From IMG/VR virus record IMGVR_UViG_3300046804_001205, positions 1-47,313 of that record: a stretch of DNA of 47,313 nt; one strand, 5' to 3'. Below the pieces are notes generated by a model. The model saw only the letters and a list, made by a program, of their open reading frames with translations, searched no databases and was not told the DNA's origin. Both the position numbers and the translations under genes were made by a program. Source of the stretch: a virus. Below, one piece after another: positions 37,997 to 46,580 of the stretch (position 1 is its first letter; the number at the start of each line of letters is the position of its first letter).

Positions 37997-38030
37997 GTAA
38001 TACCTGTGTGGTTCGCATCTATCAGGTAGA

Positions 38031-38052
38031 AGGGGTGCTTCGGCACCTTTTC
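38031..38052 (+). terminator. rho-independent terminator after SNase
   Basis: GGTGC pairs with GCACC around a TTCG tetraloop, followed by TTTTCTT. Confidence 0.82.
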
Positions 38053-38055
38053 TTG

Positions 38056-38063
38056 TATAAATA
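38056..38063 (+). promoter_or_regulatory. late promoter TATAAATA for HNH gene
   Basis: A perfect late consensus, 24 nt before the ATG at 38088 and inside the inverted repeat 38009-38076. Confidence 0.8.
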
Positions 38064-38087
38064 GTATTGCGAACCATAACAGAGTAG

Positions 38088-38525
38088 ATGAAACACATTC
38101 ACCATATTGTGCCTAAACATATGGGAGGCACGGACGACCCTAGTAATCTTATAGAGTTAAGTGTGGAAGAACACGCAGAAGCACATCGAAAACTCTATGA
38201 AGAATATGGTAATGAATATGATAGACTTGCTTGGTTGGGACTTTCTGGCATCATTGGTAAAGAAGAAATACGCAGAAAAGTTATTAGTGAAGCAAATAAG
38301 GGCAAAACTCCCTGGAACAAAGGAAAGAAAGGGGTTCAAAAAAATCCATATCTTGCCGAACTTAATAGAAGTAGAAGGGGGCAACCTATTAGTGATGAAA
38401 CAAAGGCAAAAGTGGGTGCCGCTAATAAAGGAAGAAATCGCCCAGATTTAGTGGAAAGAAATAAGAAAAGAAAGGGTATGGATATTCCTAGAGATGAAAA
38501 TGGGAGATTTATTAGTAAGAAGTAA
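38088..38525 (+). CDS. HNH homing endonuclease with NUMOD3 motifs (145 aa)
   Basis: The HNH core is HIHHIVPKHMGGTDDPSNLIEL, followed by EHAEAHRKLYEEYG, the usual H...N...H arrangement. Two NUMOD3-type DNA-binding repeats follow (GKTPWNKGKKG and SDETKAKVGAANKGR), as in homing endonucleases. It is free-standing, not within a visible intron. Its late promoter lies between the arms of an inverted repeat. Its stop codon is convergent with the end of the minus-strand operon, leaving no gap. Confidence 0.82.
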   Translation: MKHIHHIVPKHMGGTDDPSNLIELSVEEHAEAHRKLYEEYGNEYDRLAWLGLSGIIGKEEIRRKVISEANKGKTPWNKGKKGVQKNPYLAELNRSRRGQPISDETKAKVGAANKGRNRPDLVERNKKRKGMDIPRDENGRFISKK

Positions 38526-45519: not shown

Positions 45520-45523
45520 CTTT

Positions 45524-45560
45524 AACACACTTCTTGTATAAATAATATAAGAAATGTGTT
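45524..45560. repeat. 12-bp inverted repeat flanking a late promoter
   Basis: AACACACTTCTT (45524-45535) and AAGAAATGTGTT (45549-45560) match at 11 of 12 positions. The loop contains TATAAATA. The right arm ends 4 nt before the HNH ATG, where a ribosome binding site would be. Confidence 0.8.
45537..45544 (+). promoter_or_regulatory. late promoter TATAAATA for HNH gene
   Basis: A perfect late consensus in the loop of the inverted repeat, 20 nt before the ATG at 45565. Confidence 0.82.
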
Positions 45561-45564
45561 ATTA

Positions 45565-46095
45565 ATGGAAAAAGATTATCTAACTCAATTAGTTGTTAGT
45601 GGAAAAAGTATTAGGCAGATATCTAAACTTGTAAATAAAAGTGAGGGATCTGTAAGACATTGGTTAAGAAAATATAATCTTACAACTTATAAACCACCAA
45701 AATATGTGGAAAATTGTAAGTTTTGTAATATTAAACTTACTAATGAAAATACTTATGATTCTAAAAAAAGATGGTCTTGTAAATCTTGTGCTAATAAGTA
45801 TAGGAATGAAAGATTTGTCTTAACTAAACATAAAATGGTTGAATATAAAGGTGGAAAATGTATTTGTTGTGGTTTTGATAAACATTACTCAGCATTAGAT
45901 TTTCATCATTTAGATCCATCAATTAAAGAGTTTAATCTAACTCGCAATAGTATTGGATGGGATAAACTTCAACCAGAACTTGACAAATGCGTTCTTCTAT
46001 GTTCTAATTGTCATAGAATGATTCACGCAGGAGTTATTCAATTGCCCGATGACCCAGCTAGTGAAGGGACCTGCCTTACAAGCAGGCAGCGGTAG
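45565..46095 (+). CDS. HNH endonuclease with N-terminal HTH (176 aa)
   Basis: An N-terminal resolvase-like helix-turn-helix (SGKSIRQISKLVNKSEGSVR, about 11-30) and a Cys-rich region (CKFCNIKL, CKSCANKY) precede an HNH core: CICCGFDKHYSALDFHHLD, then LLCSNCHRMIHAG. This matches HTH-HNH homing endonucleases. The final 17 codons run through the tRNA-Val-like element at 46044-46116, and the stop TAG is its T-stem sequence, so the original C terminus may have been shorter or different. The ATG at 45565 is preferred to the upstream in-frame TTA/TTG start. Confidence 0.8.
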   Translation: MEKDYLTQLVVSGKSIRQISKLVNKSEGSVRHWLRKYNLTTYKPPKYVENCKFCNIKLTNENTYDSKKRWSCKSCANKYRNERFVLTKHKMVEYKGGKCICCGFDKHYSALDFHHLDPSIKEFNLTRNSIGWDKLQPELDKCVLLCSNCHRMIHAGVIQLPDDPASEGTCLTSRQR

Positions 46096-46120: not shown

Positions 46121-46128
46121 TATAAATA
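46121..46128 (+). promoter_or_regulatory. late promoter TATAAATA for dps
   Basis: A perfect consensus 5 nt after the tRNA-like element and 17 nt before the ATG at 46146. Confidence 0.8.
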
Positions 46129-46145
46129 CTTCAAAAAGAAGTATA

Positions 46146-46580
46146 ATGGAAAAGTTATATAAATCACTTTCTGATACTCAGGCATCATTGTTCCTGCTGT
46201 TCCAAAAAACTTGGGTCTATCATTGGCATATTGTAGGACCTGATTTCAAACAAATTCACGATCTGTTTGGAGAGCAGTATCTTGCCATTCAGGAGGAGAT
46301 TGACAGACTCTCTGAACATATGAGATTTTTGGGTATTAAACCGATTAGTTCTCTGTCAAGAGTTCTGGAAGTTTCTGGAGTTTCTGAAGCAAAGACTAAT
46401 ATTTCCTCAATGGAAATGATTCGTGATCTTCTTGAGGATCATAAGAAAATGGTTGCTATGTTTGATGCTGCTGCTACTGAAGCAGAGCAAGGAAAGTCAA
46501 GAGGAACTGTTAACCTTCTTGATGATTTAAACGAAGCACACGGTAAATTTATCTGGATGTTAAGATCATTCACAGAATGA
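46146..46580 (+). CDS. dps: Dps-like ferritin-family DNA protection protein
   Basis: A four-helix ferritin-like protein (144 aa). The Dps ferroxidase signature is present: QKTWVYHWHIVGPDFKQIHDLF and EEIDRLSEHMRFLG (His, Asp and Glu ligands at subunit interfaces). It stores iron and protects DNA from oxidative damage, a plausible benefit in a light-grown cyanobacterium. Length is slightly below the family's usual 150-170, with a short N-terminal tail. A perfect late promoter precedes it. Confidence 0.88.
   Translation: MEKLYKSLSDTQASLFLLFQKTWVYHWHIVGPDFKQIHDLFGEQYLAIQEEIDRLSEHMRFLGIKPISSLSRVLEVSGVSEAKTNISSMEMIRDLLEDHKKMVAMFDAAATEAEQGKSRGTVNLLDDLNEAHGKFIWMLRSFTE

Follow-up and report, generated by a model that had tools for sequence, protein, structure and literature searches.

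What does a T4-type late promoter do between the arms of an inverted repeat that abuts the start of a homing-endonuclease-like gene? This arrangement precedes an HNH gene near the 3′ end of the window (the whole 47,313-nucleotide stretch of viral DNA analyzed here). Judging by RNA fold models and the T4 analogy, it is probably a switch that limits a free-standing HNH homing endonuclease gene of a T4-like cyanophage to late expression. Early in infection, RNA reading in from the upstream genes would carry both arms and could fold into a 16-bp hairpin that hides the HNH ribosome site, so that the gene would be poorly translated. Late transcripts, in contrast, are predicted by analogy with T4 to begin inside the hairpin, at about 45550, under the control of TATAAATA; such RNA would not contain the 5′ arm, leaving the ribosome site open. 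The features concerned are listed in Table 1.

Table 1. Coordinates of the promoter, hairpin, gene and RNA features discussed, as positions in the window.
Feature	Position	Strand	Basis
Second hairpin, 5′ strand	38001..38017	+	Upstream of HNH (NUMOD3) gene; fold
TATAAATA late promoter between arms of second hairpin	38056..38063	+	Motif; fold
Second hairpin, 3′ strand, ending 1 nt before ATG 38088	38068..38086	+	Fold
Second HNH/NUMOD3 endonuclease gene, unrelated to the first	38088..38525	+	Pfam
Focal hairpin, 5′ strand TAACACACTTCTTGTAT	45523..45539	+	Fold; alignment; flank-versus-arm identity
Left arm AACACACTTCTT	45524-45535	+	Complementary to right arm
T4-type late promoter TATAAATA	45537..45544	+	Upper stem and loop of hairpin
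Focal hairpin, 3′ strand ATATAAGAAATGTGTTA	45545..45561	+	Fold; early/late pairing
Right arm AAGAAATGTGTT	45549-45560	+	Complementary to left arm
HNH homing-endonuclease-like gene, 176 aa, ATG start	45565..46095	+	Reading frame; homologues; Pfam
tRNA-like RNA, UAC (Val) anticodon, non-canonical T loop	46044..46116	+	Rfam tRNA (33.6 bits); covariation
Weaker version of the arrangement before Dps-like gene (ATG 46146)	46121..46143	+	Motif; opening cost

The positions that a previous sequence-only reading had assigned to the arms, TATAAATA and the ATG are all exact. Its arm match of 11 out of 12 bases also stands, with C45530 opposite A45554 as the mismatch, but it understated the length of the stem. 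T45523 pairs with A45561 as well, and TTGTAT/ATATAA carry the stem inwards through the promoter, giving 16 pairs with one C·A mismatch (45523-45529 with 45555-45561, and 45531-45539 with 45545-45553) around a 5-nt loop, AAATA (45540-45544). The last three nucleotides of the 5′ strand are the TAT of the promoter, which lies 20 nt ahead of the ATG (45565-45567), and NATAAATA has been published as the late motif of cyanophages (PMC2984593). The 3′ strand spans about -20 to -4 relative to the ATG and thus the ribosome site; the Shine-Dalgarno-like stretch of this gene is weak (AGAAA), and the AUG itself is unpaired in the hairpin. The fold reaches -15.1 kcal/mol, compared with -3.7 ± 1.9 kcal/mol for 200 dinucleotide shuffles (z -5.97; 0 of 200 as stable). 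An equally stable fold occurred in only four of 503 equally AT-rich 47-nt windows from both strands of the contig, two of which were the focal site. Because the fold beats both the shuffles and the equally AT-rich windows, the inverted repeat is more than chance. An intrinsic terminator was rejected, as no T run lies behind the stem, and so was a known RNA family, the Rfam match being sub-threshold and at chance level.

The neighboring small genes and the Dps-like gene are encoded on the same strand as the HNH gene. Folding of the two transcript forms, one from upstream and one from about 45550, agreed with the sequence-only reading, with the ribosome site paired in the long RNA and open in the late one. 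The mean unpaired probability of the region from -16 to -4 is 0.10 in the long RNA and 0.77 in the late RNA, and opening the ribosome site is calculated to cost 8.7 kcal/mol in the read-through RNA versus 0.1 kcal/mol in the late RNA, a difference of 8.6 kcal/mol (3.4 ± 1.3 kcal/mol when the upstream sequence is shuffled). With the promoter located between the arms, the 5′ strand stops at 45539, ahead of the predicted late start, and the whole of it is absent from an RNA starting around 45550, even if the true start differs by a few nucleotides. Compared with shuffles, the RNA from 45550 is not unusually structured (z +0.7).

Other viral contigs contain twelve close homologues (84-98% identical as proteins), whose upstream neighbors vary (a small ORF, a manA RNA, an Asn-like tRNA-like RNA, a tRNA or another gene). 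These loci and the window together have eight distinct upstream regions, all of which keep the arms, TATAAATA and the spacing, and in all eight the ribosome site is less paired in the late form; ATAAATA is invariant across the 12 homologues. The L012 hairpin, which has diverged furthest, is far less stable (-5.2 kcal/mol). Of the conservation and compensation anticipated in relatives, the former is thus present in the 12 homologues, whereas the latter does not rise above shuffles: 88% of cells are paired, and double-sided change occurs in two of 17 pairs, which is too thin for significance. Covariation alone would not prove a structure in this family and is only suggestive. A 71%-identical homologue (L071) has neither the late promoter nor the hairpin, and because of this the hairpin/promoter module is not inseparable from the HNH protein family.

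The focal protein has an N-terminal helix-turn-helix (weak matches), zinc-finger cysteines and an HNH motif. Its HNH domain match in Pfam (E 0.0075) is below the cut-off, and tblastn with annotated phage HNH endonucleases gives E values of 1e-16 to 1e-23. The tRNA-like/Dps neighborhood occurs both with and without the HNH gene, indicating that the gene is mobile. In L035, the promoter, the right arm and nearly the whole gene are deleted, with the left arm and the last HNH codons remaining, and the upstream flank is 99.2% equal to that of L012; L035 derives by deletion from an allele like L012, and loss of the HNH gene is therefore documented. The HNH-less alleles L035, L058 and L044 keep the left arm beside the tRNA-like RNA.

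On the 3′ side, the HNH reading frame runs 52 nt into the tRNA-like RNA before it ends. This RNA has a cloverleaf with significant covariation, a T loop without TTC and a D loop without GG. ARAGORN did not detect it, and since the tRNA model alone gave a match, its reading as a group I intron or as any other Rfam family was rejected. About 60 viral contigs carry it, in 18 distinct versions, and a copy is present in the isolate S-N03 (L024:2001-2073). Relatives that lack the HNH gene have this RNA by itself, and in S-SRM01 a canonical tRNA-Val(UAC) is found at its place. In many loci of another HNH family, L085-L131, the reading frame terminates within a tRNA gene (Thr, Lys, Phe, Val or Met), the two overlapping by about 7 to 51 nt.

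The same plan appears elsewhere in the window. The second HNH/NUMOD3 gene is preceded by a 17-bp outer stem around a terminator-like hairpin and the late promoter; the fold of 38000-38092 amounts to -39.8 kcal/mol (z -6.3), and the extra opening cost in read-through RNA is 14.1 kcal/mol. Before the Dps-like gene (46121-46148), TATAAATA overlaps the left arm of a 6-bp hairpin (TACTTC-AAAAA-GAAGTA), with an extra opening cost of 6.2 kcal/mol. In relatives, short but varied stems are kept.

Across 687 kb of fetched phage contigs, mostly of cyanophages, a stem of -10 kcal/mol or better lies across the start site in 34 of 94 late-promoter genes versus 6.6 expected, and the strongest of these stems precede endonucleases. 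In a survey of 60 families from 1.45 Mb, the median extra opening cost was at least 7 kcal/mol in 12 families, all of them HNH or GIY-YIG endonucleases. With the four families used as queries omitted, this level was reached by eight of 17 endonuclease families (and the feature is absent from the other nine) versus none of 39 other late-promoter families (Fisher p 1.7e-5, with the cut-off set after seeing the data; Mann-Whitney p 0.004). The inclusion of L136 and L280 among the endonucleases has a weak basis, and both score low, which biases the comparison against the result. A generic trait of all late promoters was rejected, as the median extra cost of the non-endonuclease families is below 7 kcal/mol.

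The arm sequences are wholly different between families, and the plan is common to unrelated HNH and GIY-YIG genes. The promoter and repeat are present in all 21 distinct upstream regions of the HNH family L085-L131, 20 of them with a strong stem, and its Shine-Dalgarno GGAGG lies paired in the 3′ arm. The GIY-YIG family L245-L283 shows double-sided change in five of 20 pairs, above all or nearly all shuffles, with significant covariation. Among isolates, the HNH gene of the marine phage S-SKS1 has GATGGGAGC...GATAAATA...GCTCCCATC (-27.4 kcal/mol), S-B05 has a weak hairpin (7.2 kcal/mol), and the relatives B23 and S-H34 have no clear hairpin of the same plan. In S-SKS1 (L327; HQ633071, 57491-58398), the stem around GATAAATA abuts the ATG of the homing endonuclease; the deposited start codon lies 15 nt upstream of that ATG, within the stem.

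Taken together, the fold, the conservation and the recurrence before unrelated endonucleases suggest that late-only translation is the likely function of the hairpin. The I-TevI-like control proposed by the sequence-only reading is upheld as far as the anatomy goes, by the same fold and recurrence and by the 12 homologues in unrelated flanks, while compensatory change is only suggestive. A different possibility is that the inverted repeat acts in DNA, as an operator over the late promoter to which the HNH protein binds for autorepression. I-TevI does bind an operator that overlaps its own late promoter and resembles its homing site (PMC2988022), the weak helix-turn-helix matches of the HNH protein would suit such a role, and operator and hairpin roles are compatible. 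Nevertheless, an operator is unlikely to be the explanation: the unrelated nucleases have the geometry in common but not the sequence, and the compensatory changes in the GIY-YIG family keep the pairing while the sequence changes. Moreover, apart from the shared TATAAATA/AT-rich stretch, the hairpin region resembles the insertion region in alleles lacking the HNH gene no more than shuffled sequences do. The same comparison, in which only TATAAATA was shared, led us to reject the idea that the repeat arose as a scar or target-like sequence.

The left arm could also be a mere 5′ boundary of a mobile block, kept by descent and without regulatory function. Conservation that begins at the arm amid unrelated flanks is what such a boundary would produce. 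According to the alignment and the flank-versus-arm identity, the conserved block begins with the first base of the 5′ strand, beyond which identity is that of random flanks; in pairwise comparisons of the closer loci, the 34 nt ahead of the arm are on average 23-27% identical, the arm 91% and the promoter 100%. Arm remnants where the gene has been deleted, as in the three HNH-less alleles, would be accounted for as well. We regard this as distinctly unlikely, because the fold in the window is far beyond chance and that of seven out of eight haplotypes reaches -11 kcal/mol or better, the left arm is more conserved than the fourfold sites of the gene (85% vs 73% over eight haplotypes), and independent endonuclease families have hairpins in the same place. 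Finally, a stem directly 5′ of the gene, with an AT-rich promoter within it, might affect RNA stability or processing, or form a cruciform that aids promoter opening, rather than govern translation. This is very improbable, given that a stem whose 5′ arm is missing from the late RNA could not protect the late message, and that the other late promoters of the same phages have no such stems.

The preferred mechanism, a hairpin that permits only late translation, is already known in T-even phages, its use by HNH enzymes included, which makes the HNH case one of a known kind. Reviews describe the plan for I-TevI, I-TevII, I-TevIII (HNH), SegB and the free-standing HNH endonuclease MobE of Aeh1 (PMC2988022), as well as for the T4 genes e, soc and 49 (PMC3014915). 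Where the sequence-only reading had the same control arising for an unrelated HNH endonuclease in a cyanophage, the cyanophage case holds, but the free-standing MobE and the intron-encoded I-TevIII precede it (PMC2988022). MobE, from an Aeromonas phage, is the nearest functional precedent, being likewise a free-standing HNH gene with a late promoter and a hairpin over the ribosome site; it belongs to another phage lineage and insertion site, and the tests are those of MobE. In the T4 td intron, I-TevI resembles the focal gene in having TATAAATA between the arms, a late RNA without the 5′ arm and a reading frame whose 3′ end runs into structured RNA, but it is an intron-encoded GIY-YIG enzyme, unlike the free-standing cyanophage HNH gene beside a tRNA-like RNA. 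T4 SegB is also free-standing and linked to tRNA genes, with a predicted late promoter and hairpin; it differs in nuclease class (GIY-YIG) and lies in the T4 tRNA gene region, while the focal frame overlaps a tRNA-like gene. The genes e, soc and 49 share the late promoter in a stem that hides the ribosome site of a long early RNA but do not encode endonucleases.

What appears to be new is the recurrence of the plan in cyanophages, before unrelated endonucleases and with frames that end in a tRNA or tRNA-like RNA; no description of the plan in cyanophages was found in the open-access literature. A switch studied in a few T-even genes thus appears common to many unrelated selfish endonucleases of a distant, ecologically important phage group. 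The recurrence suggests strong repeated selection, either for enzymes that stay silent until late or for keeping ribosomes off adjacent RNAs. Deleting the I-TevI hairpin left viability unharmed and reduced td splicing, which was ascribed to ribosomes entering the intron core, and SegB, linked to tRNA genes, is reported to amplify them against a tRNA-cutting defence (2026; PMC13096335). As a tentative extension by analogy, late-only hairpins could be a general, repeatedly acquired rule for the homing endonucleases of T4-like cyanophages, and at tRNA-lodged genes the hairpin might also bar ribosomes early so that the tRNA or tRNA-like RNA can fold and mature. This protective role at tRNA-overlapping loci is one that we infer; if true, it would parallel, in a free-standing gene, the protection of td intron splicing by the I-TevI hairpin. 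The tRNA-overlapping genes allow the RNA-protection idea to be tested directly a second time. The signature could also be used for flagging endonuclease genes in raw phage sequence.

Further structured RNAs were noticed. Just upstream of the HNH start in two different HNH families (L004, L007 and L085-L131), another tRNA-like RNA directly adjoins the hairpin; its anticodon loop is Asn-like (GUU) and its T loop (GGCAGTA) similarly odd. In addition, Rfam and ARAGORN identified a cyanobacterial-type (permuted) tmRNA gene beside tRNA genes in one viral contig (L009:2036-2337).
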